NCBI RefSeq assembly: GCF_000739915.1
Contig: NZ_BBJT01000024.1
Span: 1 to 42,910, forward strand
Reading direction: 5' to 3'
DNA length: 42,910 bases
DNA from: Paenibacillus chitinolyticus NBRC 15660
GTDB taxonomy: Bacteria; Bacillota; Bacilli; Paenibacillales; NBRC-103111
Of the stretch, positions 1-21,277 are shown one piece after another (position 1 is the stretch's first letter; each line of letters opens with the position of its first letter). Both the position numbers and the translations under genes were made by a program. The notes beneath the pieces are model-generated. The model was given only the letters and a program-made list of their open reading frames with translations. It searched no databases and was not told the DNA's origin.

Positions 1-311
1 GCCTCCGCAGCGCCGATGGAGCCGGGACCCGGCGCCGGCTTGCCGGGCGCGCCCTGCCCGGCTGAACCGGCTGCCGTACCGGCCTCGCCGGCTTCCGCTG
101 CCCCGGGCAGGCCCCCGCCTGCGGCCCCGCCGAAGCCGGCGAGGGGGCCTTTGCCGATTTCCGGAACGGGGCCGGTGAAGCCGCCCGTGTTGTACTGGTT
201 CGAGAGCGCACGGATGCTGCCTGCGCTCCCGACCTGCAGAACGGAGGAGTTGGACACGGCATCGACCCGGAGCTGATGGATCGTAATCGTCTGGTGTATG
301 GTCCAGTTCAT
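1..311 (-). CDS. gerPB: GerPB-like spore germination protein (3' end outside window)
   Basis: The minus strand reads into the window edge with an open frame beginning MNWTIHQTITIHQLRVD, followed by SSVLQVGSAGSI and a QYNTGGFTGPVPE segment. These are hallmarks of GerPB, a small protein of the gerP operon needed for germinants to pass the spore coat. The ATG (311-309) overlaps the stop of the upstream gerPA gene in an ATGA, so the two are translationally coupled. After about 50 residues the sequence becomes very rich in Gly, Ala and Pro, more so than I would expect for GerPB; this low-complexity tail runs off the window. The family call comes from remembered resemblance. The remaining gerP genes should lie beyond position 1. 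Confidence 0.75.
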   Translation of the reverse strand, partial: MNWTIHQTITIHQLRVDAVSNSSVLQVGSAGSIRALSNQYNTGGFTGPVPEIGKGPLAGFGGAAGGGLPGAAEAGEAGTAAGSAGQGAPGKPAPGPGSIGAAE

Positions 312-535
312 GCCGTCGCCGTTTTATTTGCCTCGGCTTCGATGGCATCGCTGTCGTTCGTATTCGTGGCGCTGACGGCATTAAATACATGCGGCAAATC
401 ACCTGTATTAAAAGAACCTGCTCCTGCATAGCTTTTTGAACTGCTGTTTGGCGATATGACCAGGCAGTCCCCGAATTGAACGACAGAGCTGGGGCCTACG
501 GTCAGTATTTTCACGTTTCCGACGATGGCCGGCAT
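308..535 (-). CDS. gerPA: GerPA/GerPF-family spore germination protein
   Basis: A 75-residue protein beginning MPAIVGNVKILTVG with VVQFGD, ISPNSSSKSYAGAGSFNTGD and SATNTNDSD, the classic GerPA/GerPF pattern. These small proteins are made in the mother cell late in sporulation and help germinants cross the coat to reach their receptors. GerPA and GerPF look alike; I choose gerPA because the next gene downstream is gerPB, which follows gerPA in Bacillus. The start is set by an AAAGGAG ribosome site just upstream (about 542-548). It is the first gene of the operon here, behind a near-perfect sigma-K promoter. The stop overlaps the gerPB start by ATGA. Confidence 0.85.
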   Translation of the reverse strand: MPAIVGNVKILTVGPSSVVQFGDCLVISPNSSSKSYAGAGSFNTGDLPHVFNAVSATNTNDSDAIEAEANKTATA

Positions 536-565
536 AGGCGTTCTCCTTTGCTGCGTCTTCTTTTA

Positions 566-593
566 TAGCTTATGTAGGGTAGCGCCCAGATGT
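566..593 (-). promoter_or_regulatory. Sigma-K-type promoter for the gerP operon
   Basis: Read on the minus strand, ACA (593-591) is followed after 16 bases by CATAAGCTA (574-566). This fits the sigma-K consensus, AC in the -35 region and CATANNNTA at -10, with the right spacing. It lies about 30 bases upstream of the gerPA start. gerP operons of Bacillus are known to be transcribed by sigma-K in the mother cell, so motif and context agree. Confidence 0.65.
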
Positions 594-637
594 TCATATT
601 CCTTTCCCCGATTTAACGGATTCCGCAAAGAATGTTC

Positions 638-666
638 ACCACCGGGCGGTCTCCGTTCATATAATG
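638..666 (+). promoter_or_regulatory. Sigma-K-like promoter for the gerT-like gene
   Basis: ACC (638-640) is followed after 17 bases by CATATAATG (658-666), which matches the CATANNNT core of sigma-K -10 elements. It ends 24 bases before the ATG of the Hsp20-like gene. The fit is weaker than for the divergent gerP promoter, because the final A of the consensus is a G and the -35 element is short by nature. Confidence 0.4.
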
Positions 667-689
667 CAGAAGAAGCGGGGGGAGCTGCG

Positions 690-1187
690 ATGAATCAGCC
701 GGACATGAATAAATGGCTTAAATGGGAGCATGTCGAAAAATTTCTCGATCAGCCCCAGAAATACATTGAGAATATCAAATGGATCGAAGGGTTCGTGCGC
801 GACGTTTTCGACCGTACAATGCCGCCGCCCCAGATGAACGCGGACATTCAGCAGACGCAGCCCAGGTCCCAGCAGAAGGGCAAGCAGCAAACATCGTCCC
901 AGCAGCCGAGGGAGAGCGTGAACGGCGATACGTTCGAAACGCATACGGACGTATTCGTCCGGTTAAAAATTCCGAAAAGCGAAGATCCGCGTTCGCTGCA
1001 GGTCATGGTGAAAACCAGCCACGTCAAAATTCTCGGGCTGACGGATGAACCGAGAAAACTCATTAAACTGCCCAGCCCGGTTTTGCCGAAAACGGCGAAG
1101 GCCACTTACAAGGAGGGCGTTCTGCAAATACAGGTGCGCAGGCGCAAGTATAAAGACAACTATCATGAAGCGTATATCGAGTATTGA
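690..1187 (+). CDS. Hsp20/alpha-crystallin-like spore protein, GerT-like
   Basis: A 165-residue protein, MNQPDMNKWLKWEHVEKF at the start. The N-terminal half (1-85) is polar and Gln-rich. The C-terminal half (about 85-165) has the beta-rich alpha-crystallin pattern: DVFVRLKIP, then HVKILGL, then KEGVLQIQV, and it ends HEAYIEY. This resembles GerT, an Hsp20-family inner-coat protein of Bacillus that influences germination. The start is chosen from the purine-rich GGGGGGAG at about 676-683; an upstream in-frame extension lacks a ribosome site and would run through the promoter. Its position opposite gerP and its sigma-K-like promoter support a spore role. It could instead be a generic Hsp20-domain protein. 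Confidence 0.6.
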   Translation: MNQPDMNKWLKWEHVEKFLDQPQKYIENIKWIEGFVRDVFDRTMPPPQMNADIQQTQPRSQQKGKQQTSSQQPRESVNGDTFETHTDVFVRLKIPKSEDPRSLQVMVKTSHVKILGLTDEPRKLIKLPSPVLPKTAKATYKEGVLQIQVRRRKYKDNYHEAYIEY

Positions 1188-1196
1188 AATGAAAAA

Positions 1197-1228
1197 GAAA
1201 CCGGCCTTCAGCGGCCGGTTTCTTTTTA
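1197..1228 (+). terminator. Rho-independent terminator of the gerT-like gene
   Basis: A perfect 10-bp stem (1197-1206 with 1213-1222) and a 6-base loop, running into a T-rich tract ending at 1228. It starts nine bases after the stop codon. Confidence 0.9.
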
Positions 1229-1434
1229 TTGCGCTGGAGAGAGTGCCTTAGACCGGGACTCTTGTCTTCCGGCGGGAAGCGGTGGAACGAAAGAAGCGGA
1301 GGGGCGATCGCCCAAGAGGGGCTGGCCGGAAAACGTACCGCTCGCGATCGGAAGAAAGAAGGGGCCGTCCCACTGGTTTTGCGTCTCTAGGCGATGGTCC
1401 AAAAGCGGTTGGCCCGGTTCTCTCTCGGGCTTTC

Positions 1435-2802
1435 TTAATCCTTCGGCAGCCTGACATGAACTTCGGTGCCGATATCCGGCTCGCTTTGGATCTTGAGGGT
1501 TCCGGCATGGAGCTTGACGATGTTCTCGGCGATGGCGAGCCCCAGTCCGACGCCTCCGTTCTTGCGGCTGCGCGCTTTATCGACGCGGTAAAACCGGTTG
1601 AACAGCTGCGGGATGTCGTCCTTCTCGATGCCGATCCCTTTGTCCACGACGGAGATCTGCAGGTGACGGGGCTGCTCCCGGACGATGATGTTGATCGGCA
1701 GCTGGCTGTACTTAATCGCGTTGTCGAGCAGAATGATCAGCAGCTGACGGATTTTCTCGGGGTCGCCTTTCATCTTCAGAGGGGTGTCTTCTTCGGGAAG
1801 ATCCAGACGCACCTCGCGGTCGAACGTCAGCTGAATGGACGCGGCCGTGGCCTGGACCAGGGGGCGCAGCTCGAATTCCTGCCATTCGGTCCGCTGCCGT
1901 TCGTCGGAATCCGCAAGAGTGAGCAGGCTCTTCGTCATTTCCCTCAGCCGGACCGATTCGCTCAGAATCGCTTCGATGGCTTCTTCGCGAATCTGGGGAT
2001 CGTTGCTGGCCCAGCGCTTGAGCAGCCTCGCATAGCTCTCGATAATCGTGAGCGGGGTGCGCAGTTCATGGGAAGCATCCGCCAGGAACTGTTTCTGCTG
2101 CTCGAAATGCTGCTCCAGCCGGCCGATCATTTCATTGAAAGTCTGGCCGAGCTGAGCGATCTCGTCTTTTTTGCGCGTGGATTGGATTTCCAGCCGCCTG
2201 AATGTTCCGCTCCGTTCAATGCTTTCCATCGTCTGGGCCAGCCTGTGAATGGGGTTGAACACCAGACTCGCGTAGATATACCCGATGATAACGGATAGGA
2301 CAAGCGCACCGAGCGTCGTATAAAAAAGAGCGAGAAACAGCACCTGCACGTTATCGTTCAGGGTGACCAGCTTGCGGGCGATTTCCAGCGAAGCGATCTG
2401 GCGCTCGTTTTCCATAACGGGCACTTGCACATACAGACAGAAGCCGTTGTCTGTGGAAACGAGCTTAGAGACGGTGCCTGTCGCGGGTATGAATTTGGCG
2501 GGACGCTGGAGGAGCGTTTCGTCCGTGTAGATTTCTTTTTGCACCGTGGAGTCCGGTCCGATGAGCCGGATCAGTTCGTTGGCTACGAGAAAGTCTTTGA
2601 GCAGAAAAGGATTTTCCCAATATTCAGGATGCTGCACCACATTTTCTTGAAGCAGCAGCTTGGCCGCTTTGCGTTCGATATTTTGAGTTTCATTGCGCGA
2701 ATTGTTTTCGATAAAAAGATAGTAAATGAAGAAGTTGACGCCCAGAAGAATCAGAAAGAGCAGGGAAGTCTGAAGCAGAGCGAACCGCAGCTTAAGACTC
2801 AT
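1435..2802 (-). CDS. Membrane sensor histidine kinase of a two-component pair
   Basis: A 455-residue kinase. A first membrane helix spans about 7-30, an extracytoplasmic sensor region about 31-150, and a second helix about 152-182. A HAMP linker follows (NPIHRLAQTMESI), then the dimerisation box with phospho-acceptor His245 in DASHELRTPLT. The ATPase domain shows an N box (LLDNAIKYS), G1 (DKGIGI) and G2 (GVGLGLAI). It autophosphorylates and passes phosphate to the regulator just upstream. I place the start at the ATG 2802, preceded by GGAAG with 8-base spacing; a GTG at 2811 is possible but poorly placed. The start lies inside the end of the regulator gene (11-bp overlap), so the two are coupled. 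It resembles ArlS/YkoH-type kinases; the signal is unknown. Confidence 0.92.
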   Translation of the reverse strand: MSLKLRFALLQTSLLFLILLGVNFFIYYLFIENNSRNETQNIERKAAKLLLQENVVQHPEYWENPFLLKDFLVANELIRLIGPDSTVQKEIYTDETLLQRPAKFIPATGTVSKLVSTDNGFCLYVQVPVMENERQIASLEIARKLVTLNDNVQVLFLALFYTTLGALVLSVIIGYIYASLVFNPIHRLAQTMESIERSGTFRRLEIQSTRKKDEIAQLGQTFNEMIGRLEQHFEQQKQFLADASHELRTPLTIIESYARLLKRWASNDPQIREEAIEAILSESVRLREMTKSLLTLADSDERQRTEWQEFELRPLVQATAASIQLTFDREVRLDLPEEDTPLKMKGDPEKIRQLLIILLDNAIKYSQLPINIIVREQPRHLQISVVDKGIGIEKDDIPQLFNRFYRVDKARSRKNGGVGLGLAIAENIVKLHAGTLKIQSEPDIGTEVHVRLPKD

Positions 2803-3493
2803 CGGGGCCACTTCCTTTTATGAGATAACCGACGCCGCGGATCGTATGGATCAGCTTGCCGGGGAAATTTTTTTCGAGCTTCTGCCGCAAATAACGGATG
2901 TAGACGTCCACAATGTTCGTATCGCCTACAAAATCGTAGCCCCATACATCGGAAATGATATCTTCCCGGGATTTCACTTCCCCCTTGTGCTGGAGCAGGT
3001 ACTGGAGCAGATCGAACTCCTTGGGAGTAAGTTCGACGGATTTCCCCATGCGGGTAACCTCGCGGCTCTTCAGGTTCATGAGAATATCTTCCGCCTGAAG
3101 AATCTGATCGTTCTCCGCCTGGCTCTGCTGAGTCGTCAGCCGGAGCAGGTTGCGAATGCGGGCGAGCAGCTCTTCGATGGCGAACGGCTTCGTCACGTAG
3201 TCGTTCGCTCCCTGGTCCAGGCCGCTTACTCTGTCGGGCACCGCGTCCCTTGCGGTCAGGAGGATGACGGGGACCGCGGACTGCTGCCGCAGGCGGCGCA
3301 GCACTTCCAGCCCGCTCAGCTCGGGGAGCATGATGTCGAGCAGGATGAGATCCCACGGCTCCGCCAGAGCCATGTCGAGACCCTTGCGCCCGTCCTCGGC
3401 CAGGCTGACCTCGTAGCCCTCATGCTGCAGCTCCAGCTGCAGGACGCGTGCAATTTTACTCTCGTCTTCCACCAACAAAATTTTGCTGCTCAT
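2792..3493 (-). CDS. OmpR/PhoB-family response regulator
   Basis: A 233-residue regulator with an intact receiver domain: acidic pair E9-D10, phospho-acceptor Asp53 in LILLDIMLPE, Thr80, and Lys102 in YVTKPF. A linker leads to a winged-helix DNA-binding domain (about 135-230) with ELTPKEFDLLQYLL, the IRYLRQKLE recognition region and GVGYLIKG at the end. GGAGGTG stands just before the ATG. It is the first gene of a two-gene minus-strand operon with the sensor kinase and diverges from the TetR/export operon across 232 bases. Whether it controls that exporter cannot be told from the sequence. ArlR and YkoG are the closest family types I can suggest. Confidence 0.93.
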   Translation of the reverse strand: MSSKILLVEDESKIARVLQLELQHEGYEVSLAEDGRKGLDMALAEPWDLILLDIMLPELSGLEVLRRLRQQSAVPVILLTARDAVPDRVSGLDQGANDYVTKPFAIEELLARIRNLLRLTTQQSQAENDQILQAEDILMNLKSREVTRMGKSVELTPKEFDLLQYLLQHKGEVKSREDIISDVWGYDFVGDTNIVDVYIRYLRQKLEKNFPGKLIHTIRGVGYLIKGSGPDES

Positions 3494-3676
3494 CCCGCAC
3501 CTCCGCTTTTACAGATAGTGTTTGTGGAGGGGGCGGTTTCCATACGGAACAGATGAAAATTGAACGGCAATCCGGCAAAGGTTGAAAAAAGAGGCCCGTT
3601 TTTAGACAAAAGGGCTAAAATGTAAGGCTGTTTGGCCGGGGGGACCCGTTGATTTTGCCCCGTAAAGATGATATTG

Positions 3677-3713
3677 TTTTGACTACAGAACTAAAATAGG
3701 ATTTTGGTCAAAA
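3677..3713. promoter_or_regulatory. Candidate operator/promoter region of the TetR-export operon
   Basis: TTTTGAC (3677-3683) and GTCAAAA (3707-3713) form a perfect inverted repeat with a 23-base centre. Inside lies a second, shorter palindrome AAAATAGGATTTT (3693-3705). The -35/-10 elements cannot be fixed with certainty, but the repeat sits in the promoter zone, 12 bases before the TetR start, where an autoregulating TetR protein would bind. AGGAGG-type ribosome site at 3715-3720. Confidence 0.35.
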
Positions 3714-3725
3714 CGGAGGTGCCGA

Positions 3726-4295
3726 ATGGATCAGCGGCGCGAAAACATTCTCGATGCGGCGAAAAAATCGTTTGCTTTGTTCGGATACAAAGGAACGACG
3801 GTCGATCAGATCGCCAAAATCGCCAGCGTTGGGAAGGGAACGCTGTACCTGTATTTTGAGACAAAAGAAGATTTGCTAAACGAGATTGTCAAATCCCTGA
3901 TCGCCGAGATGAGAAAACTGGCCGACGCCAGCATTTCCAAGGGCGGCACGATCATGGAGAAGCTGCATTCCGCTACATACAGCATTCTGGTTTACCGGAA
4001 GGAGCACGAGCTGCTGCTGAAATTGTCGCAGGAGGTGGCCCAGTTCGGTACGCCGGCGTCTCAGCACGCTCTGCGCGAGATCGAGGAAGGCGTCATCGGC
4101 TACATCAAGCAGCATCTGGAGATCGCCGTCGCGAACGGAAGCATCAAGCCGTGCGATCCCGAGATTACCGCGTTCGTGCTGGTGCGTATGTACCTGGTCC
4201 TGCTCGTCGACTGGGAAAGAAAGCATCCGCCTCTTACCAACGAGCAGATTTCGGATCTAATCCAGCTTTATATGATGGACGGAATCGCCCTCTAA
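3726..4295 (+). CDS. TetR-family repressor of the export operon
   Basis: A 189-residue TetR-type protein. The N-terminal helix-turn-helix is clear: ILDAAKKSFALFGYKGTT, then VDQIAKIASVGKGTLYLYFETKEDLL at about residues 8-50. The C-terminal ligand/dimer domain is mostly helical and unassigned. The ribosome site GGAGGT is five bases before ATG. It is the first gene of a run with a membrane fusion protein, an ABC-2 permease and a TolC-like protein. In Escherichia coli the TetR-type regulator YbiH (CecR) stands in the same place before ybhGFSR, so a local repressor released by a toxic compound is the best guess. The ligand is unknown. Confidence 0.88.
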   Translation: MDQRRENILDAAKKSFALFGYKGTTVDQIAKIASVGKGTLYLYFETKEDLLNEIVKSLIAEMRKLADASISKGGTIMEKLHSATYSILVYRKEHELLLKLSQEVAQFGTPASQHALREIEEGVIGYIKQHLEIAVANGSIKPCDPEITAFVLVRMYLVLLVDWERKHPPLTNEQISDLIQLYMMDGIAL

Positions 4296-4361
4296 GGGCG
4301 GTTTGTCCGTTTACACCCTAAATTATGAACTAGAGAAAGTATCCTGGGAGGGAAATGTTAG

Positions 4362-5651
4362 ATGAAGTTTGTTAGACCTGTTGTATACGTAGTGATGGCC
4401 GGATTGATCGGCGGGGGAACTTTCCTGCTGTCTTCCAAAGAGGCCCTGAGCAGCACCCAGAACCGTCCGGCAAACCTGCCGACCGCTTATATCGAAGCAA
4501 ATCAGGTGGCCGCGAGCTTTAAAGCCGGCGGCCGCGTGACTGAAATTCTCGTCAAAGAAGGGGACACCGTGAAGAAAGGCCAGGTGCTGGCCCGGATTCA
4601 AAGCCAGGAAATCGAGGCGAAAGTAGCCCAGGCCAAAGCGGCCGTAGCGCTCTCCCAAGGGAAAATCGCCGAAGCGAAGGGCGCGGAAGCGACAGCCCAG
4701 GCGAAAAAACAGCAGGGTCAGGAAGCGGTGACGCTTACCGCGGAAACGGCCGAGAAACAAGTGAAACAGGCCGAAGCGGTCGTGAAAGCCGCGCAGACGA
4801 AGGTGGACGCCTTGAAGAACGGGGCGAGACCGGAAGAGAAAAAGCAGGCGGAGATTCAGCTGAACGCAACCAAAGAGGTTTTCCAGACAGCGGAAGAAAG
4901 CTACAACCGTGTTAAAAAAATGAAGGAAGAGGGACTCGTCGCCCAGACGGACGTGGATAAAGCGAAAGTCAGCTACGAAGAAGCCAAAGCCAAATACGAA
5001 GTGGCGCAGCAGCAGTACGCGCTTGCCCAGCAGGGGCCGCGCGTGGAGGAAATCCAGGCCGCGGAGGCGCAGGTGGAACAGGCCAAAGCGGCCGTCGAGC
5101 TGGCTAAGGCGAACATGGATCAGGTGAAGATCCGCCAAGGTGACGTGAACGCCGCTCAGGCGTCGATCCAGCAGGCGCAGGGCGCCGTCAAATCCGCCCA
5201 GTCCGGACAGCAGCAGGCCCAAGCGGCCCAAAGCGAAGCCGAGACTTACCTGAGCTACACCGAACTGCTTGCTCCTTCCGACGGCATCATCATTTCCCAA
5301 TCCGCTCAACTGGGCGAAATGGTAGGCTCCGGCTTCCCGGTGTTCACGATGGAAACTTCCGCGGACACGAAATGGGCGCGTTTCTATCTGAAAGAAACGG
5401 ACGCGGCCGGTCTGAAAACGGGCGATACCGTGACCGTAAAAGTGACGGCTAACGGCGCCGCCGTGACCGGCAAAGTAAGCACGGTCGCTCCGGCCGCGGA
5501 CTTCGCCGTGAAGAAAGCGACGCAGAACGCGTCCGATACCGATATCCGCTCGTTCGGCGTGAAAGTCGAGCTTTCTCAACTGCCGGAATCGGTTCTGACG
5601 GGAATGACCGTACAATGGGAAGGAAAAGCGGGTGATACCGTTGCCCCTTAA
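4362..5651 (+). CDS. HlyD-type membrane fusion protein (efflux adaptor)
   Basis: A 429-residue protein with an N-terminal anchor helix (about 4-23), then the first half of a barrel-sandwich (lipoyl-like) domain with GGRVTEILVKEGDTVKKGQVLARI. A very long Ala/Gln/Lys/Glu-rich coiled coil (about 85-300) includes the ARPEEKKQAEIQL motif typical of YbhG-type adaptors. The second lipoyl half (YTELLAPSDGIII...LGEMVGSG) and a beta-barrel follow. Such proteins bridge an inner-membrane transporter to an outer partner. The long hairpin is the part that docks on TolC in two-membrane bacteria, notable here because a TolC-like gene closes the operon. GGGAGGG precedes the ATG. The next gene overlaps its end by 20 bases. 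Confidence 0.9.
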   Translation: MKFVRPVVYVVMAGLIGGGTFLLSSKEALSSTQNRPANLPTAYIEANQVAASFKAGGRVTEILVKEGDTVKKGQVLARIQSQEIEAKVAQAKAAVALSQGKIAEAKGAEATAQAKKQQGQEAVTLTAETAEKQVKQAEAVVKAAQTKVDALKNGARPEEKKQAEIQLNATKEVFQTAEESYNRVKKMKEEGLVAQTDVDKAKVSYEEAKAKYEVAQQQYALAQQGPRVEEIQAAEAQVEQAKAAVELAKANMDQVKIRQGDVNAAQASIQQAQGAVKSAQSGQQQAQAAQSEAETYLSYTELLAPSDGIIISQSAQLGEMVGSGFPVFTMETSADTKWARFYLKETDAAGLKTGDTVTVKVTANGAAVTGKVSTVAPAADFAVKKATQNASDTDIRSFGVKVELSQLPESVLTGMTVQWEGKAGDTVAP

Positions 5652-6858
5652 AGTCGGAAGCGTGATCGCCGAGGAATGGCGGCAAATTTTCAAGGACCGC
5701 CGGTTGATGGCGATTCTGTTCCTCGTGCCGATCCTTTACACAACCTTATTCGGATCGATTTATATCCAGCATAAAGTAACCGAAATGCAGACCGTCGTCT
5801 TCGACGAGGACAACAGCCAGCTCAGCCGCCAGATCGTGCAGGCGTTCGACCAGAGCGAAACGTTCCGGGTCGTGAACGCCTACCATTCGGAGGCGGAAGT
5901 GACGGAAGCCATCTCCCGCGGAGAAGCGAAGGTCGGGGTCATTATCCCGAAAGAATTCGAAGCCCGCATTAAACACGGCGATGTGCAGCCGGTCATGACG
6001 CTGATCGACGGCGCGAACATGATGATCTCCAACTCCGCGACGCGCGCGGCCAATGAGATCGTGACCACGTACAGCTACGGCGTCAGCGGCAAGAAGCTCC
6101 AGCAGCAGGGCCTTCAGGATGAACAGGTCAGCTCGACGTTCTCCGCCGTCCCGTTCCGCTACCGGGTGCTTTACAATCCGACGTTCAACTACAGCGATTT
6201 TATGATTTTCGGTCTGGCGGGCGCGATTTTACAGCAGGTGCTTCTGCTCGGCATCGCTTTGACCATCACCCGCGATAAGGAAAAAGGGATCTGGAGCCGT
6301 TTTGCGGAGTGGAAAAAGATGCCGTGGCGCCTCGCTTACGCGAAATCGGTCCCCTATTTTATCATCGGCATGCTGAATGCGGTCGTGGTGTTCACGATCA
6401 TGCTGTTCGGCTTCGACCTTCCGATGCGCGGACAAATTCTGATGGCCATGCTGCTCTCGGCCTGCTTCAACTTTGCGGTGCTCGGCATCGGGTATTTCAT
6501 CTCCCTGTTCTCGAGCGCGCAGCTCGGCTCCACTCAGATTGCGATGCTGATCGCGGTGCCGTCGTTCATGCTGTCCGGCTATACATGGCCGTTTGAAGCG
6601 ATGCCGAAGGCGTTGAGCATCCTCGGCCATCTGCTGCCGCTTACTTACTTCCTGGAGGGCGTCCGCCACGTGTTCGTCAAAGGCAATGGCTACGACGTCA
6701 TCGTCAAGGACTGCATCGCGCTTGTTCTGACGGGACTCATCACTTACTTTGCGGCATTCCTGCTCACCCGGTTCGCCATGTTCCGCAAGCAGACGGATGA
6801 GCCGGCTTCGGCCGGGCTGCCTGCTGTCCAGCAGGAGAGCACCTCCCTTACGGTGTAA
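5632..6858 (+). CDS. ABC-2 family permease (YbhR/YhhJ type)
   Basis: A 408-residue integral membrane protein. One N-terminal helix (about 22-45) is followed by a large extracytoplasmic domain (about 46-180), then five more helices to the C-terminus, the usual ABC-2 layout. The segment SGYTWPFEAMPKAL before the last helices is typical of this family. The start is GTG 5632, preceded by AAGGA and lying inside the end of the adaptor gene, which indicates coupling. These permeases normally need a separate ATPase subunit, but none is encoded beside it; it may borrow one from elsewhere or work differently. It probably forms the inner-membrane channel for the substrate handled by the adaptor and TolC-like protein. 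Confidence 0.9.
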   Translation: MIPLPLKVGSVIAEEWRQIFKDRRLMAILFLVPILYTTLFGSIYIQHKVTEMQTVVFDEDNSQLSRQIVQAFDQSETFRVVNAYHSEAEVTEAISRGEAKVGVIIPKEFEARIKHGDVQPVMTLIDGANMMISNSATRAANEIVTTYSYGVSGKKLQQQGLQDEQVSSTFSAVPFRYRVLYNPTFNYSDFMIFGLAGAILQQVLLLGIALTITRDKEKGIWSRFAEWKKMPWRLAYAKSVPYFIIGMLNAVVVFTIMLFGFDLPMRGQILMAMLLSACFNFAVLGIGYFISLFSSAQLGSTQIAMLIAVPSFMLSGYTWPFEAMPKALSILGHLLPLTYFLEGVRHVFVKGNGYDVIVKDCIALVLTGLITYFAAFLLTRFAMFRKQTDEPASAGLPAVQQESTSLTV

Positions 6859-6898
6859 GAGCCCTGTTCGACCGACACAGTGCCAAACAGCGTTTCAC

Positions 6899-6938
6899 CG
6901 GCGCGCGAAAGCCATGCTTGTACAGTGCCAGCGCGCCG
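6899..6938 (+). other. Hairpin between permease and TolC-like genes
   Basis: CGGCGCGC (6899-6906) and GCGCGCCG (6931-6938) pair perfectly around a 24-base loop, in the 177-base gap before the TolC-like gene. There is no T-tract, so it is not a standard terminator. It may stabilise or process the mRNA. The word ACAGTGCCA occurs twice here, once before the hairpin and once in its loop. Confidence 0.4.
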
Positions 6939-7035
6939 TTTACATAGTTTCAGTCATCAGCATCAGCGCTTTTGTTCCCATGTCCCTCAGCCTGCGTTTA
7001 GTTCTTATCATACCTTGGAAAAGAAGGGATTTTCG

Positions 7036-8409
7036 ATGAAAAAAATCATAGCTACGCTGACGGCGTCCGCTTTTGTATTCGGCATGATGCCGGCCGCATG
7101 GGCGGCGGATACCCATTCGCCTTACTACGAAATCAAAGACGGCAACCTTGTTCAACTTCACGCGACAACCGATAAGCCTCTCAATAAAGATGAGATACGC
7201 CTGCCCGCGCTGGAGAAAGTCAGCAAGCTGACCCTGGACACCGTGCTGGAATGGACGCTTAACAACTCCTACAATATGAAATTGCTCTACCTGAAAACAG
7301 CCGCGCTCGGCAGCAAAAGCAGCGATCTCAAGAATCAGAGCGAAAACCTGTACGGAGGCAGCTTCGAAGGCTACAAGCTTCCGGCTTCCCCGCAGGATTA
7401 CATGACGCCAGAGGCGATGAAGAAATACCAGATCGATCCGACCAAAGCGACTCCGGACAGCTTCTTCTGGATCGGTCCGGTTGTCGAAACCAACACGGTG
7501 CTGAACAAAGTCATCGAAGGGCAGGGGCAGATGGTTAATGGCATTAACCAGATTTTGCAGGCCCAGCGCGAACAGATGAAAACAACCTCGCATCAGCTCG
7601 ACACGGACATGTGGAACAACCTGCTCCAGACCGACGAAGCGATTGAAGGCATCAAGCTTCAGGTGACGGCGCAGTACGTGCAGCTTCTCGGCTCCAAGAA
7701 GCAAATCGCCCTCATGCACGAGTACAAAGGTGTGGCGGAGAAAGAGATGAAACGCGCCCAGGTGCTGAGCGACGCGGGTCTCGCTTCTCCCGAGGACGTG
7801 GAAACCGCCCGCAAAGCGGTGAACAAAATCGGTGACGATATTCAAACCCTGGAGAACAACTACCGCCTAGGCCTCGTGCAGTTGTGCTTCGATATCGGCG
7901 TTGAATACACGCCGGACCTGCTGCTCGAAGAGCCTGCCGCCGTATCCGAAAATGTGCAGCCGGTTGTGAAGAAAGATACCGAAACGCTGCTCGCCAATTC
8001 TTTTAAGCTGAAAATGGATCACAACGGCATCGACGAAGCCATCTGGCAGCAGCAGAATACCGTGACCAAGAATACGTACGGCGGCCAGTATCAGAGCGTC
8101 AACACGGGAATCGCTTATCAGAAACAGGAACAGACGAAAGCCGAGCTGGTCAAAAAGATCTACGCGACTTACAGCGATGCCGAGAACGCTTATCAGATCG
8201 TGCTGAACGAGCAGCGCAACCTGAAAGACGCGCAGGCCGATGTCGCCAAAATGAAAATCCGCTACGAGAACGGGTTTGTCTCCAAGCATGATTTCGATAA
8301 ATTTTCTTTTAAACTTCAACAGGCTCAAACCACGCTGGAGGGAGCCAGACTGAAATACTTCGCCTTGGTACGCAAGGCCGAAGCGATGGATAGAGGATTT
8401 ATCTCGTAA
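7036..8409 (+). CDS. TolC-like outer membrane efflux family protein
   Basis: A 457-residue protein with a Sec signal peptide (MKKIIATLTASAFVFGMM, predicted cleavage after AWA, about residue 22). The rest is mostly long amphipathic helix, with two halves that follow the OEP/TolC pattern: KEMKRAQVLSDAGLASPEDVETA-like in the first, and AQADVAKMKIRYENGFVSKHD-like in the second. Length fits the family (about 420-480). The ATG 7036 is chosen because an AAGAAGGGA ribosome site and a good signal sequence follow; the frame is open further upstream but without either. TolC proteins form outer-membrane tunnels, so the presence of one in an apparently single-membrane Paenibacillaceae cell is odd. It may span the thick wall or the S-layer zone, or act as a soluble scaffold. 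It closes the TetR-adaptor-permease operon. Confidence 0.75.
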   Translation: MKKIIATLTASAFVFGMMPAAWAADTHSPYYEIKDGNLVQLHATTDKPLNKDEIRLPALEKVSKLTLDTVLEWTLNNSYNMKLLYLKTAALGSKSSDLKNQSENLYGGSFEGYKLPASPQDYMTPEAMKKYQIDPTKATPDSFFWIGPVVETNTVLNKVIEGQGQMVNGINQILQAQREQMKTTSHQLDTDMWNNLLQTDEAIEGIKLQVTAQYVQLLGSKKQIALMHEYKGVAEKEMKRAQVLSDAGLASPEDVETARKAVNKIGDDIQTLENNYRLGLVQLCFDIGVEYTPDLLLEEPAAVSENVQPVVKKDTETLLANSFKLKMDHNGIDEAIWQQQNTVTKNTYGGQYQSVNTGIAYQKQEQTKAELVKKIYATYSDAENAYQIVLNEQRNLKDAQADVAKMKIRYENGFVSKHDFDKFSFKLQQAQTTLEGARLKYFALVRKAEAMDRGFIS

Positions 8410-8478
8410 AAGGCCTGTATTTCGAAAGTTTATGCAGACTGAATGTATATGGACTTTATTATTAGGCGAATGAATAAG

Positions 8479-8510
8479 AGAGACCGGTCCTTGGATCGGT
8501 CTCTTTTTTT
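8479..8510 (+). terminator. Terminator of the export operon
   Basis: AGAGACCG (8479-8486) pairs with CGGTCTCT (8497-8504), followed by seven T residues. It lies about 70 bases after the TolC-like stop. Confidence 0.85.
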
Positions 8511-8522
8511 GATAGCAACATT

Positions 8523-8555
8523 AAAAAAACCGTTGATCCTGTTATGGTCAACGGT
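8523..8555 (-). terminator. Terminator of the SDR gene
   Basis: On the minus strand an 8-bp stem (8555-8548 with 8536-8529) runs into a tract of T residues (complement of the A-run 8523-8529). It lies 28 bases after the SDR stop, tail to tail with the export operon terminator. Confidence 0.8.
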
Positions 8556-8582
8556 CTGTTTTACACTTGCGAATAATAACTC

Positions 8583-9320
8583 TCAACCTTGATTTTCATT
8601 AACATTTTTACTTGCAGCGACTGCACACTCAAAACGATCTCTAGTGATATTGAGTTGGTATATTTTTTCTGCTACATCACTCGCAACAACTCTTTCATCC
8701 AGATGGAAACCTGCGGGAAGATCTGTTCGCTCCTTCTCTTTTTCTAGATCCGTATACAACGGAGGATTATGCAAAGGGAAATATCCAACAAATACACCAT
8801 TTCCCTTTAATTCATTGTGTAAATGTTCGGAAAGAAGTCTCAGGGCCGCCTGGGGAGCTCCAATAGCAGCCGTATAAGGAAACGGATATCTATCAGACTG
8901 ACCACTCGTATACAAAATAGATCCCTTTGATTCTTTAACATAAGGAAGGGCAGCTTGAGCAGATTTCAAGGCACTGACTACACGCATATTTAGAAATTCC
9001 GTTATAAGTTCAGTTGAAATCTCTGTTGCAGGTACATATGCCTTGCCTAGCGGTCCCGGGACATTATAAAATAACACATCAATTCCTGACATCTTATCGG
9101 CCAATAGTTTAATTGCTCTCTCTATTTGTTTGGGGTCATATGCGTCAGCGGGTTCGAAATAAGTATCTATTCCTTCAGCTGATAATTCAGCCGCCATTTC
9201 TTCAATTTGTTCTTGTCCTCTGCGAATTAACCCTACGGAGTACCCTTCTTTACCGAAACGTCGAGCTGTTTCAAGTCCGACTCCCTGTCCTGCACCTACA
9301 ATGATAATATTTTTATTCAT
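8583..9320 (-). CDS. SDR-fold protein lacking the catalytic Lys
   Basis: A 245-residue short-chain dehydrogenase/reductase-like protein. The nucleotide-binding motif is at the start (IIIVGAGQGVGLETARRFG), and the ADA plus FYNVPG region corresponds to the usual NNAG. The active-site Ser is in ILYTSGQS. Where the family has Tyr-x-x-x-Lys, this protein reads PYTAAIGAPQAALRLL: a Tyr is present, but no Lys follows at +4 or nearby. It may therefore be a weak enzyme, a different reaction type or a sensor. The gene is AT-rich compared with its GC-rich neighbours and is divergent from a LysR gene of similar composition, so the pair probably arrived together. GAAAGGAAG precedes the ATG. Substrate unknown. 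Confidence 0.8.
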   Translation of the reverse strand: MNKNIIIVGAGQGVGLETARRFGKEGYSVGLIRRGQEQIEEMAAELSAEGIDTYFEPADAYDPKQIERAIKLLADKMSGIDVLFYNVPGPLGKAYVPATEISTELITEFLNMRVVSALKSAQAALPYVKESKGSILYTSGQSDRYPFPYTAAIGAPQAALRLLSEHLHNELKGNGVFVGYFPLHNPPLYTDLEKEKERTDLPAGFHLDERVVASDVAEKIYQLNITRDRFECAVAASKNVNENQG

Positions 9321-9446
9321 TTTATTTCTTCCTTTCCTAACAGTAATTAAATTTTATCCTTACAAAAAAAATTGTCTTGCATTGTTTTTCATATATCCAT
9401 TGTAGTAGATCCATATATATTTGTATAATTGAAATGATTGAAGATT

Positions 9447-9467
9447 TGATTCAAAATAATTGAATCA
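9447..9467. promoter_or_regulatory. LysR-type binding box between SDR and LysR genes
   Basis: A perfect inverted repeat, TGATTCAA (9447-9454) and TTGAATCA (9460-9467) around AATAA, ends 18 bases before the LysR start. It contains T-N11-A-type spacing as seen in LysR recognition sites. Its place between divergent genes fits autoregulation plus control of the SDR gene. Confidence 0.6.
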
Positions 9468-9485
9468 TAAGGAAGTGTAGACTAC

Positions 9486-10343
9486 ATGGAAATACGTCAT
9501 TTATTAACATTCAAGACTGTTGTAGAAAAAGGCGGGTTTAAAAAGGCTGCTGAATATCTCGGATATGCTCAATCTTCTATAACCACTCATATTAAAGACT
9601 TAGAAAATGAAGTAGGTGCACCCCTATTTGATCGGATTGGTAAAAAAGTAATTTTGACTCACTATGGACAGCAGTTCCTTCCGTATGCCATAAAAATTAT
9701 CGAATTGCATACTCAGGCTTTAAATATGGATGAAGAACCTATCGGCAATCTTAAAATCGGTATATCTGAATTGTTGACCGTTCAACGTATTCCCTCCATT
9801 TTGTTAGAATACAAAAAATTGTACCCCAAAGTTAATATTTCTCTTAAATCACTTGACCACTGTGATATTAGTTCTAATCTGCAAAATGGAGATATTGATA
9901 TGGCATTGATTTTAGAAAAGGAAGATTGGCCTCTGCCTGAGCTCCATTGTGAAAAATTAAAAAGAGAAGAAATGGTTTTGATTAGCTCTCTCGAAAATAA
10001 AGAAGACTTAAAAACAATTCTTTATACAGAGGAAAGCTGCTGCTACAAATCTTTATTCGAAAACTATTTAGAAAGTAAACATATAGAGGTAGAACAAATT
10101 CTAAAATTTCAAAGTATTGAGGCCATAAAACAATGTGTCATTGGTGGTCTAGGCTGCTCATTGGTTCCTTACTTTTCTGTAAGAGAAGAAATAGAAGGAA
10201 ATAAAATAAAGGGTGAAAGGGTGAGCCATGAACTTAATGCAAACATGTCCACCTACTTGGTCTATCACAAGGATAAATGGATCTCTCCCGCTATGCGTAG
10301 TATGATCACTCTGATCAGGACCCATGTTAAAACCTGGAGTTAA
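9486..10343 (+). CDS. LysR-family transcriptional regulator
   Basis: A 285-residue LysR-type regulator. The helix-turn-helix spans about residues 1-60: MEIRHLLTFKTVVEKGGFKK, then AEYLGYAQSSITTHIKDLENEVGAPLFDR-like sequence. The effector domain begins near 85 with IGNLKIGISELLT. It resembles the CynR/CysL-type branch in general pattern only. GGAAG stands before the ATG. It is divergent from the SDR gene with a perfect palindrome between them, so the SDR is its most likely target. Codon use is AT-rich, unlike the flanking export and nrd operons, which suggests the pair was acquired. Confidence 0.9.
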   Translation: MEIRHLLTFKTVVEKGGFKKAAEYLGYAQSSITTHIKDLENEVGAPLFDRIGKKVILTHYGQQFLPYAIKIIELHTQALNMDEEPIGNLKIGISELLTVQRIPSILLEYKKLYPKVNISLKSLDHCDISSNLQNGDIDMALILEKEDWPLPELHCEKLKREEMVLISSLENKEDLKTILYTEESCCYKSLFENYLESKHIEVEQILKFQSIEAIKQCVIGGLGCSLVPYFSVREEIEGNKIKGERVSHELNANMSTYLVYHKDKWISPAMRSMITLIRTHVKTWS

Positions 10344-17760: not shown

Positions 17761-17802
17761 AAAAAGGATCAAGCTCCTCAGGTTGGAGCTGGATCCTTTT
17801 TT
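17761..17802. terminator. Bidirectional terminator of the 18-kb membrane gene
   Basis: AAAAAGGATC and AGCTCC pair with GGAGCT and GATCCTTTTT around a 7-base loop with one internal mismatch. The minus-strand T-tract comes from the A-run before 17766. The stop codon of the minus-strand membrane gene overlaps the edge of this element. Confidence 0.85.
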
Positions 17803-18352
17803 ACATGTTTAAATTCTTTTTGTTGTTCTTTTTATAAAGGATCATTATGCCTGCAAGTACCCATTCGATCACGTGCAGAGCGACAGACAAAGTGAGAGCG
17901 GACAAAAAATCCTTGATGTACACACCGGGAATCAGATGAGCAAAAACATAAATCAGAAGACAGTCTGCGATTATCGTGATGATTTGTCTGCTGTAAATAG
18001 AGGGAGGTCTTTTGAGACCGTAGCGAATCAGTGCATGGGTTAGAGGATGAATAAAGGTCTCGAAGAACAGGAAGCTCAGCAGAATGACCAGGGAAAAAGT
18101 GAAGAGATCCGCTTTGCCCGTAAAACTGATGAGTGAGCTGGTATGTTCAATCCCCCGGAAGAATGTCATATATAAGAAAGCAAACCCGATTACCGGCCCG
18201 ATGATGAGCAAGGACAAAAGCGGAATTGCCCATATTTTCGTCTTCCATGACGGTGCAGGTTCATGGTCCCGGTGCGATAAATAATTCAGCAGGACGTTCA
18301 AACCAAAAAACAAAAGCAGCAGCAGTCCAAAGAGTAATACATAATTGTTCAT
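17801..18352 (-). CDS. Unknown membrane protein, possible immunity partner
   Basis: A 183-residue protein with about four membrane helices: near residues 3-21 (YVLLFGLLLLLFFGLNVLL), 43-65, 85-105 and 130-165. It ends in a Lys/Asn-rich cytoplasmic tail (LYKKNNKKNLNM). I do not recognise the family. GGGAGGACC before ATG 18352 sets the start. It is AT-rich and lies directly downstream of a small secreted helical protein, with a 96-base gap holding a 16-bp hairpin. A small secreted protein followed by a polytopic membrane protein is a common bacteriocin/immunity layout, but that role is inference only. No transporter or processing gene is nearby. Confidence 0.75.
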   Translation of the reverse strand: MNNYVLLFGLLLLLFFGLNVLLNYLSHRDHEPAPSWKTKIWAIPLLSLLIIGPVIGFAFLYMTFFRGIEHTSSLISFTGKADLFTFSLVILLSFLFFETFIHPLTHALIRYGLKRPPSIYSRQIITIIADCLLIYVFAHLIPGVYIKDFLSALTLSVALHVIEWVLAGIMILYKKNNKKNLNM

Positions 18353-18387
18353 GCAGGTCCTCCCTAATATGTACATGCCTATAAATA

Positions 18388-18448: not shown

Positions 18449-18862
18449 TTAAATTCCCGCTAACCAAACTATTGCTTTTGCAATTTCCCAAGCTTCAGCA
18501 GGGGGTATACCAAGAGATACAAGTCCGGTAGCAATAATATTTTCTTGCCAGTTTGTTATGGAGTCTAAGAAATCAGCAATCTTGCCTGAGTATTTTGTTA
18601 ACCATTGTCCTGCTGATGGACTTAATTTTTCTAATAGTTTGCCTAAATAAGAACCCCCGTAACGAAGTGCGCTTGTGATTGCTTTTTTAATGATATTAGA
18701 AATTAATCCATCTGGTTGCACGGCTGTAGGAGCTACTGTTGTAGAGACACTGTTCGCTAGAGGGGGCGTTTTAAGTGCTGATGCGAATGAAGCACTTGGT
18801 GCGGCTAGGGCTCCTGCAACGATTGAGACAGCCAATACGGAACTTACCAAAGTTTTTTTCAT
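18449..18862 (-). CDS. Small secreted helical protein of unknown function
   Basis: A 137-residue protein with a clear Sec signal peptide (MKKTLVSSVLAVSIVAGALA, cleavage likely after ASFASA, near 27). A Pro/Thr/Val-rich stretch follows (about 28-52), then amphipathic helices: GLISNIIKKAITSALRYGG, GKLLEKLSPSAGQWL and KIADFLDSITNWQENI. It ends in a hydrophobic helix pair, TGLVSLGIPPAEAWEIAKAI and VWLAGI. The composition recalls membrane-active peptides, and the GIPPAEAWEI segment faintly recalls the GIPAAVA start of enterocin AS-48, but this is too little to name a family. GGGAGGTG is eight bases before the ATG. AT-rich, with its own promoter and a palindrome upstream. Paired with the downstream membrane gene. 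Confidence 0.75.
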   Translation of the reverse strand: MKKTLVSSVLAVSIVAGALAAPSASFASALKTPPLANSVSTTVAPTAVQPDGLISNIIKKAITSALRYGGSYLGKLLEKLSPSAGQWLTKYSGKIADFLDSITNWQENIIATGLVSLGIPPAEAWEIAKAIVWLAGI

Positions 18863-18893
18863 ACTAAACACCTCCCATTTATTTACAAAAATA

Positions 18894-19051: not shown

Positions 19052-21148
19052 TTACTGACTGCTGCCCTGCCTAACCAGCTCATCCACCGACCACGCTACG
19101 CACCAGGGGAACTGGTTTTTCGTTTCCTGCGGAATCCAGTAGCAGCGGTCCGTTTTATTTTTATCGGGGTAAAACACATACATGAGCAGCTTCACTTCGC
19201 TGATATCATCGGTTTCGCCCGGACGGGGATTCGGGTAACGGACCGTACAGCCCATTTGAGATGAAAATTGGGTGGATACGTTCACTTCATACGTGTACAT
19301 GAAGCTGGACCCTACACCGATCGAAAATATATCGCCGGGCGCCTCACCCGCAGGCTCGCATTCAACGGATACGCTGTTGGAAACGGAGGTGACGGTTTTG
19401 CTGACTTTAATAAAATTTTCTTCGATTTTCATGGATTCCGACCAATTCACCGGCATACTGAACGAAAGCTGTTTATCCGCATAATCGGGCAGCGCCGTAA
19501 ACCTTTGCACATAATTCTCGATGCGGTTCGGATCGGGCTGTTTCGGAAACGTGCTCAAGGATCTGCCTTTGCGGGCTTCGATGCTAAGATCCGATACGGA
19601 GAAAAGACTGAGCTGCACGCCCAGGTCGTTCTCCTGCCAATCCGCCAGCTTGTAGGTATGCCTGGTTATGTTGGGCCGGATATACAAATGCGTAGCCGTT
19701 TTTTTGGTGGCAGACGGATACAGCTCGATCGAAAATTCCTTGATGCTCTTCATTTCCGAAGTGACGGACCGCGTCCGCTCATAAGCGATTTTCATTTCGC
19801 CTCCGAGTCCCACGACCGGAACTTTGCCGCTAAAGTTGAGAGAAGCGCCGAATTTGTACTTCGCGGATACCGCCGCCTGCTCTTCCTTCGACCACTTGAA
19901 CCGGAAGGAACAGATGGAGTCTGTAAGCTCGGAGCCGTTCAGCACGTGGGGAGGGGGGCTTTCCACAACGCCCAGAAACGTAAGATGGTCATCGTTGGCC
20001 CAGTTCGTCAACGTGTCCGTCAAGGTAAGCCGGTCGGAGCGGTATCGGCCTATTCCGAGATGTTTTTTCATACCGGAGCCGTCGAACGTCTGCGTAAACC
20101 AGATTTCCGACCGGATATGTCCCTCGTCCGTAGGTTTGAAGAACTGGAATGCGTCGACATGATGTCCCGTAGGCGTCGACATATGCCCCCAGTTCCGGAG
20201 AATGGGGGGCGACCAGTGGCCCGAAGAGGCGGAGTATTCGTATCTCCTCGCTTTGATGTTTTTCTCGGCTTTGCCGCTGACGAACATCTGAAGGACGCTC
20301 CCTGTGCAGCCGTTCTCGATAGATCCCGGAACGATCGCGAAGTGGCTGACGTTTTCATCTTCCGCTATGGAGTGCGGTTCATTTACTTTCCGGGGCGGTG
20401 CGTTTTCTTCGTGGTGCAGGAGCCAAGTTTTTAAAGCTTCTTTTTTGCGGGGAATGACCGCCTTCTTATCCGGGCTTCTTTGAATATAGCCGACCATGAT
20501 CCGCACTTCGCCGCCGGGCTCCCGGTAGCTGCACGCCGCCGTATGAGTGACGTCCGCGATGCCGACTTCCTCCGTCTTGCCGTCTTTCGCGGGGCGCTGC
20601 TCACGGGCGTCCGTCCGCTCCCACGTCTGCCCTCCGTCATCCGTCCAGTTCAGCGCCAGCTTGCTGTCCGCACCGGAGCCGATGAGATACAAGCGGGTTC
20701 CGGCCGACACGGCTGCGAACCGGGAGTCCGTCCGAAGGCGCATGCGCTCGCTTAAGGTAAGAGCCGATGACCATTCGGTTCCGTCCGGGGAAGTCATTTG
20801 ATACAGCGTGCCCCGCTGATCCGCGTAAAACAAATACAAGACGCCTTCATGCGCGCAGGCGGCCAGTGCCGGTATATACCCTCCGGAGACTCCGTCGCCT
20901 CCGTACGCCACTTTGGTCAAATACTCGATCCCGAGCGGCCCTTTCTTTTTGCCGGGGCTCTTAGCGAGTCTGATCTTTTCCTGTTTATCGTCGGCGAGGT
21001 AAGTTTCCATACAAATGAGATCCAGCAGATTCCCGTTCGTGTAAAAAAGATAAGCTTTATCGTTGAAAAACGTACCGGCAGCCGGTCCGGTATTGGATGC
21101 TCTCGTATAAAACTCCTCAAAAGCATCGTGTTTGGTTTTGGCGGACAT
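19052..21148 (-). CDS. Large Asp-box/beta-rich protein of unknown function
   Basis: A 698-residue protein without a signal peptide. The N-terminal half (about 1-370) looks like a beta-propeller: repeated LYLFYA, LYLIGSG and AYLFYTN strands, with Asp-box-like turns (SPDGTEWSS and TDDGGQTWERT) as in sialidase-like and lectin propellers. The C-terminal half (about 390-690) is beta-rich with runs alternating Ser/Thr and hydrophobics (YERTRSVTSEMKSIKEFSIEL, SKTVTSVSNSVSVEC), reminiscent of pore-forming toxin strands, but I cannot match a family. ATG 21148 is chosen because GGAG lies 7 bases upstream; a GTG 42 bases earlier has no ribosome site. It stands alone, next to the secreted-peptide pair. 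It could be a toxin, a lectin or a spore/crystal protein. Confidence 0.7.
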   Translation of the reverse strand: MSAKTKHDAFEEFYTRASNTGPAAGTFFNDKAYLFYTNGNLLDLICMETYLADDKQEKIRLAKSPGKKKGPLGIEYLTKVAYGGDGVSGGYIPALAACAHEGVLYLFYADQRGTLYQMTSPDGTEWSSALTLSERMRLRTDSRFAAVSAGTRLYLIGSGADSKLALNWTDDGGQTWERTDAREQRPAKDGKTEEVGIADVTHTAACSYREPGGEVRIMVGYIQRSPDKKAVIPRKKEALKTWLLHHEENAPPRKVNEPHSIAEDENVSHFAIVPGSIENGCTGSVLQMFVSGKAEKNIKARRYEYSASSGHWSPPILRNWGHMSTPTGHHVDAFQFFKPTDEGHIRSEIWFTQTFDGSGMKKHLGIGRYRSDRLTLTDTLTNWANDDHLTFLGVVESPPPHVLNGSELTDSICSFRFKWSKEEQAAVSAKYKFGASLNFSGKVPVVGLGGEMKIAYERTRSVTSEMKSIKEFSIELYPSATKKTATHLYIRPNITRHTYKLADWQENDLGVQLSLFSVSDLSIEARKGRSLSTFPKQPDPNRIENYVQRFTALPDYADKQLSFSMPVNWSESMKIEENFIKVSKTVTSVSNSVSVECEPAGEAPGDIFSIGVGSSFMYTYEVNVSTQFSSQMGCTVRYPNPRPGETDDISEVKLLMYVFYPDKNKTDRCYWIPQETKNQFPWCVAWSVDELVRQGSSQ

Positions 21149-21277
21149 AATCTCACTCCAATAGATGTTAGGATCGATTGCTTTATTCACGGATCACTAT
21201 ATCAAAGGGGAATTATTAAGGATACTAACAAAAGTTAATGGAAATGAGTTCAAATTCACGGCGCCGGAAAACAAACA

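Follow-up and report, generated by a model that had tools for sequence, protein, structure and literature searches.

A candidate tripartite-type exporter of Paenibacillus chitinolyticus with a TolC-family protein that appears to have lost its outer-membrane barrel

Outer membrane factors, the proteins of the OEP family, possess two barrel β-hairpins per protomer, which form a 12-strand barrel in the trimer. In Escherichia coli the exporter YbhGFSR (cecR-ybhG-ybhF-ybhS-ybhR) combines a TetR-type regulator with an HlyD adaptor, the YbhF ATPase and two different ABC-2 permeases. As reported in PMC8809574 (PLoS Biol 2022), TolC-like proteins are also found in monoderm Firmicutes, where 12 are shown and many are encoded in operons with an adaptor and a membrane component; for the C. 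difficile protein, homology modelling is reported to show an omission in the barrel region, and the S-layer was proposed as its seat. Here we analyze a stretch of 42,910 nucleotides of Paenibacillus chitinolyticus NBRC 15660 (contig NZ_BBJT01000024.1, in the following “the window”), in which positions 3726 to 8409 hold a single run of four co-directional genes encoding a TetR-family regulator, an HlyD adaptor, an ABC-2 permease and an OEP/TolC-family protein. We regard it as fairly probable that the run encodes a tripartite-type exporter adapted to a single-membrane cell, with a decapitated TolC docked tip-to-tip onto the adaptor.

Like the monoderm systems described in PMC8809574, the run places an OEP-family protein beside an adaptor and a membrane component in a Firmicute without BamA. 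It differs from them in its membrane component, an ABC-2 permease that has no nucleotide-binding domain (NBD), in the longer repeat 1 of the OEP protein, and in that barrel loss was measured here against Omp85 content. TolC-like proteins of monoderm Firmicutes and the S-layer hypothesis are already published, and the novelty is lower than a preliminary description of this DNA had implied. Neither an ABC-2 version lacking the ATPase nor a correlation with Omp85 was encountered in PMC8809574, the main text of which names neither Paenibacillus nor ATP. In the literature covered, which did not extend to the gene content of the 12 operons published there, neither barrel loss set against Omp85 nor this ATPase-less operon was found.

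The four products all score above their curated Pfam cut-offs, which bears out the tripartite-like gene set that had been proposed for the run:

3726..4295, + strand: TetR-family regulator, opening the run (TetR_N, 4.7e-16)
4362..5651, + strand: HlyD/YbhG-like adaptor of 429 amino acids (HlyD_3, 9.6e-15)
5632..6858, + strand: single YbhS-like ABC-2 permease (ABC2_membrane_3, 1.5e-43)
7036..8409, + strand: OEP/TolC-family protein of 457 amino acids (Pfam OEP, 3.9e-13)
7036..7104, + strand: Sec-type signal peptide of the OEP protein, residues 1-23 (...AWA/AD), no cysteine, assigned by eye
8529..8555, + strand: terminator-like stem-loop downstream of the run, from a consensus scan that found 12 such sites vs 6.6 expected

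The permease gene starts 20 bases before the end of the adaptor gene. The OEP profile matches the last product with 50.1 bits (cut-off 22) in two stretches corresponding to the two repeats of the family (PF02321), and the suggested relationship to TolC is supported. Its gene most likely starts with the ATG at 7036 rather than the GTG at 6880; the ATG has a Shine-Dalgarno-like aagaaggga upstream and opens the signal peptide. The resemblance to the ybh cluster was likewise recovered, as the adaptor is 23% identical to YbhG (E 6e-18) and the permease 23% identical to YbhS (E 1e-28). Compared with YbhGFSR, the run has no YbhF ATPase, only one permease where two different ones would be expected, and its own OEP gene in the operon. 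In the search of the own genome for NBDs no ATP-binding gene was found adjoining the run, the sole match on the contig being EcsA (22951-23541), 14.5 kb away and next to EcsB. Neither similarity nor a Walker A plus signature motif pointed to an NBD in the operon stretches (16-17 kb) of 12 relatives, and the earlier statement that the run contains no ATP-binding gene holds.

In both repeats of the window protein the OEP profile aligns with the post-barrel half alone (profile positions 96-184 and 94-175), whereas the best stretches of E. coli TolC (2-187), CusC (6-187) and MdtP (4-187) begin near the start of the profile. The protein has in common with TolC and CusC the tandem OEP repeats, the post-barrel helical hairpins and the docking tips; it differs by the apparent absence of the second barrel hairpin, by a first hairpin that the profile does not match, and by a host without Omp85. 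The relevant parts, with invariance referring to an 11-row alignment of the OEP family, are:

7351..7578, + strand: residues 106-181 of repeat 1, which occupy the site of the first barrel hairpin and include a conserved Gly-rich stretch; the profile match begins at 96
7771..7800, + strand: docking tip of hairpin 1 (AGLASPEDV), G248 and D254 invariant, at the same place as VGLVAITDV of TolC
8056..8136, + strand: repeat 2 link (residues 341-367) at the site of the second barrel hairpin of TolC, 47-57 residues shorter
8266..8295, + strand: docking tip of hairpin 2 (NGFVSKHDF), G413 and D419 invariant

In repeat 2 the distance from motif to docking tip is 88 residues in all 13 unsplit members of the family (the split OEP of locus L027 is left out of the motif-to-tip counts), compared to 145 in TolC and 135 in CusC. 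With a deficit of about 50 residues in repeat 2, the loss of the second barrel hairpin is well supported at the level of sequence. In repeat 1, 12 rows have a corresponding distance of 159-168 and L028 one of 122, compared to 133 in both TolC and CusC. The segment 106-181 is conserved in relatives and partly helical in a low-confidence model. Here the first barrel hairpin seems to be replaced by a longer, conserved Gly-rich segment, although repeat 1 taken alone is insufficient to decide. A check for the TolC barrel strands, as the preliminary description had proposed, was negative for repeat 2 and gave a repeat 1 unlike the profile. The two docking tips lie 165 residues apart in the window protein, 218 in TolC and 208 in CusC.

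Of 398 Bacillota genomes, 250 contain an OEP protein (E 1e-7 or better) and 100 an Omp85 protein; both occur in 97, and an OEP without Omp85 in 153 (counted by eye from the lists). Forty of the latter were taken in listing order, leaving out the own genome (G000), G178 with its contamination-like match, and G185. In these 40 genomes the profile matches start at positions 62-99, mostly with two per protein; the exceptions are one match in G077 and one in G171, both from position 1. With a tip profile seeded with segments of the window protein, TolC and CusC and widened by 138 segments from the tested loci, the tip spacing was 162-170 in 27 of 30 loci of Omp85-less genomes (three gave no two tips) and 204-248 in 30 main OEPs (30 loci) of Omp85-bearing genomes, the former sample being the best 30 loci of the 40 chosen genomes and the latter, selected differently, the 30 top-scoring OEPs of the phylum sample. 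Two of the 32 open reading frames (ORFs) measured at the Omp85-bearing loci, truncated second ORFs in L238 and L239, have a spacing of 167. Among the Omp85-less genomes measured, most OEPs are of the barrel-less kind; such OEPs exist also in Omp85-bearing genomes (G217, G274).

Two loci deserve separate mention. In the Omp85-bearing genome G274, locus L297 holds tandem OEPs (5061-6533, spacing 244; 6530-7720, spacing 167, OEP match 84-187) next to an FtsX-type permease and an NBD; a mixed trimer or an intermediate of barrel loss is conceivable. The Omp85-less genome G178 contains a barrel-bearing OEP (L296:272-1648, spacing 216), possibly a contamination, in an assembly of 450 contigs with 3% contamination.

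No Omp85 match was found in the own genome by a search that was positive in 7 of 14 named control genomes, and 96 SLH domain matches were found. The host looks monoderm-type, in agreement with the apparent monoderm assumed before, while the absence of Omp85 is a proxy rather than proof. Because the genome has no Omp85, residence of the OEP protein in an outer membrane is unlikely. That the organism is a cryptic diderm with an ordinary TolC pump we consider next to impossible, given the missing Omp85 and an OEP protein without room for a second barrel hairpin; nothing was found that speaks for it. Neither a fold unrelated to TolC nor a diderm host, the two outcomes named as refutations in the preliminary description, was found.

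The adaptor is extended relative to YbhG by an additional segment in each hairpin arm (46 and 45 residues), and its homology indicates a long helical hairpin with each arm about 45 residues longer than in YbhG. Gram-positive adaptors with very large hairpins have been noted (PMC4446572). At the tip of adaptors, the RLS motif RxxxLxxxxxxS binds TolC and is permissive at its third residue (PMC3391258). In the window adaptor it is present in a relaxed R/M/A form:

4908..4943, + strand: RLS-like tip of the adaptor (R183, M187, A194), aligned with the exact RLS motif, RQQGLWKSRTIS, of YbhG

All 14 adaptors of the family's OEP-bearing genomes possess Arg at the first position, with Leu (4) or Met (10) at position 5 and Ser (4), Thr (1) or Ala (9) at position 12. 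We compared this to cousin operons without an OEP alongside (L062-L077), whose permeases are 21-26% identical to that of the window and which occur in 16 of 98 genomes. An HlyD adaptor was detected in 15 of the 16, and the tip is absent in all 15 (9 deleted, 6 with the whole hairpin missing). In OEP operons of Omp85-less genomes, 11 of 12 tip-aligned adaptors (11 with a pump of the resistance-nodulation-division (RND) type, and L290) contain the exact RLS motif and one has Lys for Arg. This pattern, the tip being kept with the OEP and absent without it, is the strongest sign of a contact between adaptor and OEP protein, and conservation of the docking surfaces on both is well supported by the alignments.

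The OEP proteins of Omp85-less genomes also adjoin other pumps. Among 18 neighbourhoods (L278-L295) an RND pump is encoded in 12 (L278, L279, L281-L283, L285-L288, L291, L292, L294) and a MacB-type permease with an NBD in two (L280, L284), while in the remaining four stretches neither kind of pump is seen (L289; L290, which has just an adaptor; L293; and L295, where no OEP with two tips was called). Pfam underlies these labels for the RND query and the L278 pump (ACR_tran) and for the L280 and L284 permeases (MacB_PCD, FtsX); the others follow from similarity to the query. AcrB-type (RND) operons such as L278, L281 and L287 resemble the window run in a barrel-less OEP with a spacing of 167-168, a TetR gene and an RLS adaptor. 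The difference from them, and from the MacB-type operons, is the inner component, which in the window is an NBD-less ABC-2 permease.

Tip spacing, barrel loss and the adaptor tip pattern, together with the gene order and co-occurrence described below, make it likely that a decapitated TolC and the adaptor join tip to tip in a tripartite assembly. In this assembly the ABC-2 permease in the cytoplasmic membrane would pass its substrate to the HlyD adaptor with the lengthened hairpin, and the RLS-like tip of the adaptor would dock onto the tips of a TolC-family trimer. The trimer would have kept the α-helical barrel and lost the outer-membrane β-barrel. The α-barrel, which may terminate either inside the wall or at the S-layer, could represent a conduit through the inner wall zone. 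We infer the trimer, its docking, its role as a conduit, the export and the location.

The docking surfaces also bear on the idea, which we judge to be unlikely, that the OEP homologue, rather than forming a conduit, acts as a helper that is secreted or bound to the wall, such as a chaperone cage or a wall-organizing factor capping the adaptor. A protein without a membrane anchor and with a conserved extra segment in repeat 1 would suit such a role, and TolC-like proteins have been found in C. difficile secretomes (PMC8809574). Against it stand the conservation of both docking surfaces and the absence of the adaptor tip where no OEP is present, as well as the barrel-less OEPs that adjoin AcrB-type and MacB-type pumps in other genomes.

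Among 98 genomes searched, the OEP protein is present in 14 (own genome included), belonging to 6 of 39 genera, and permease matches of at least 48% identity occur in exactly the same 14 genomes, the next-best reaching 21-26%. The nearest named relatives by OEP are Paenibacillus sp. HGH0039 and UNC499MF (97% identity); in the five further genera outside the own genus the identity is 35-49% for the OEP and 48-65% for the permease. Adaptor, permease and OEP genes occur together in 12 of 13 relatives, and a TetR gene lies 5' of the HlyD gene in 11. All four genes are intact and in order in 10 relatives, so the order is not due to chance, and the proposed check of gene order gave a conserved arrangement. 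One relative has the last three genes without a TetR match. L027 (genome G036) has the four genes, but its OEP gene is divided into two ORFs (7889-8836 and 8790-9125) while permease and adaptor are intact, and in G077 (L028) the OEP gene adjoins an AcrB-type pump with HlyD adaptor and permease elsewhere in the genome. Assembly contamination as the source of the operon was discarded, as 12 relatives share it. No relatives were found in viral contigs.

This distribution is patchy (14 of 98 genomes), and together with the one split gene it could indicate a decaying remnant of an outer-membrane pump, acquired by transfer or retained from a diderm ancestor, that simply lost its ATPase and its barrel. 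We consider this very improbable: the OEP gene is unsplit in 12 of 13 relatives, the family spans five further genera with a constant motif-to-tip distance of 88 residues, and most OEPs measured in Omp85-less genomes are barrel-less.

Several observations weigh against the tripartite reading and have to be kept in mind. The OEP gene is split in L027 and lies apart from adaptor and permease in G077. Repeat 1 is no shorter than that of TolC, and as the profile spans all of repeat 1 in G077 (L028) and G171, a remnant of the first hairpin may survive. Only one of the 14 family adaptors (L023) has the strict RxxxLxxxxxxS, and in the window Met and Ala stand for Leu and Ser. The 15 tip-less cousins form one distant permease group (21-26% identity), so the absence of the tip may reflect one or two losses. 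In the MacB-type operons with a barrel-less OEP (L280, L284) the adaptor has no RLS motif at the aligned place.

The AlphaFold2 model of the whole protein, built from three sequences (the window protein and two near-identical relatives), places helices at the expected hairpins and its sole strands at 30-34 and 37-41, N-terminal to the repeats; with a mean predicted local distance difference test score (pLDDT) of 41.9 and a predicted template modelling score of 0.27 it is too poor to use. Residues 305-457 modelled alone gave helices at 368-411 and 417-456 (pLDDT about 95 over 385-434) and two strands of four residues (341-344 and 353-356, pLDDT about 40) at the site of the TolC barrel hairpin, which tentatively leave room for a vestigial hairpin. 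The alignment by hhalign with three E. coli OEPs was weak (probability 27%, E 0.0007, one hairpin), and no significant match to the window protein was found among PDB sequences. A Foldseek search with the repeat 2 model ranked chains of EmrAB-TolC, CusC, AcrABZ-TolC, EmrA and MacAB-TolC at the top, which is only suggestive, as E was 0.19 or worse and none reached 0.001.

One further part of the permease was compared:

6271..6345, + strand: permease loop (residues 214-238), aligned without gaps to YbhS

We take this loop to be the coupling-helix region. It is of full length in the OEP-linked permeases and four residues short in the aligned cousins without OEP, while the NBD-paired permeases of the own genome vary as much at this place. 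The stretches around the cousin operons (13-14 kb) contain no NBD in 13 of 16 cases and an NBD 4 kb away in three.

An ion-gradient-driven, NBD-free ABC-2 permease might power a tripartite exporter with an α-barrel-only conduit through the Gram-positive wall, a tentative proposal. The proton gradient has been suggested as a source of energy for YbhFSR itself (PMC7190983), and with an NBD-less ABC-2 protein also present in the own genome (L099, see below) an exporter of this kind is possible. The window permease scores 42.7 bits against YhgE/Pip (TIGR03062), below the cut-off of 102.2. An ABC-2 protein of the own genome (L099) is nearest to YhgE/Pip with 55.3 bits (cut-off 96.15) and has no NBD match in its stretch. 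YhgE/Pip and EsaA/YueB are ABC-2 proteins without NBD, and they share with the window permease that no NBD gene lies alongside; we know of no adaptor or OEP partner for them.

Alternatively, the same assembly could be a complete ABC exporter whose permease is served in trans by an NBD encoded elsewhere, a possible reading that we hold about equally likely. The full-length, gap-free loop of the OEP-linked permeases, compared to the shortened loop of the cousins, is in agreement with this, and some sugar importers are known to share an NBD. Stand-alone NBDs do exist: L191:3884-4702 and L200:3921-4703 are truly alone, with no NCBIfam model above cut-off among the matches listed, and the UgpC-type L198:3606-4730 is nearly alone, with membrane ORFs 1.2-1.3 kb away.

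The genomic context of the NBDs points in the other direction. In the own genome 92 places are nearest to exporter NBDs at E 1e-15 (a first look scored 150 of 183). Each of the best 30 has a membrane ORF nearby, within 1.5 kb in 28 (by script) and further off in two, namely L121 and contig C5. A further 40 stretches hold 51 NBD ORFs, and 3 of these were flagged as alone, one (L200:7374-8393) only because its partners, seen in L128, fall beyond the stretch. The suggested search for an orphan ATPase accordingly returned no dedicated one among the best 30 places and the 51 ORFs, a set outside which lie fused-looking long frames and two places of ordinary length.

Contig C5 (L155) was rejected as an orphan exporter ATPase, as two ABC2_membrane_6 proteins lie upstream of it, beyond the 1.5 kb examined at first. 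In G002 and G003 the C5 ATPase is indeed linked to the operon, lying on the same strand 8.5-8.8 kb ahead of the TetR gene; as a partner of the operon it was also rejected, belonging to a separate exporter with homologues in genomes without the operon. The matches of C5 and of window positions 1-3700 are nearly contiguous in G002 and G003, which probably places C5 directly ahead of the window. The ABC2_membrane_6 exporter of C5 has a gene resembling D-alanyl-D-alanine carboxypeptidase (by eye) between its permeases and NBD.

On the other side of the run, just 3' of it, genes of the SDR and LysR families are found at 8583-10343 with scores below the cut-offs. They lie in the block of 2 kb with the lowest GC content of the window (8001-10000; 39% compared to 46-61% elsewhere) and were possibly acquired. 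On the minus strand, a small secreted protein with an amphipathic tail and no NCBIfam match (18449-18871) stands beside a small hydrophobic protein (17801-18376), by eye a possible pair of bacteriocin and immunity protein. In a protein of 712 amino acids (19052-21190, minus strand) Pfam recognizes nothing apart from a very weak BNR repeat (E 0.33).

Together with the Omp85 correlation, the reading with an NBD-free permease would imply that the barrel of TolC represents a separable module that was shed on the loss of BamA while the docking machinery was kept. The tip spacing provides a simple sequence test to tell barrel-bearing from barrel-less OEPs, which can be used for annotation, where barrel-less OEPs are labelled as outer membrane proteins, and for dating the loss of the outer membrane. 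The ATPase-less permease offers a testable case of an ABC-2 fold without its own NBD. To the question raised in PMC8809574 of how TolC-like proteins are assembled without BAM, the tripartite reading would give a partial answer, namely that there is no full barrel to assemble. Tripartite pumps would then have outlasted the loss of the outer membrane in Firmicutes, with the exit duct trimmed to an envelope with a single membrane.

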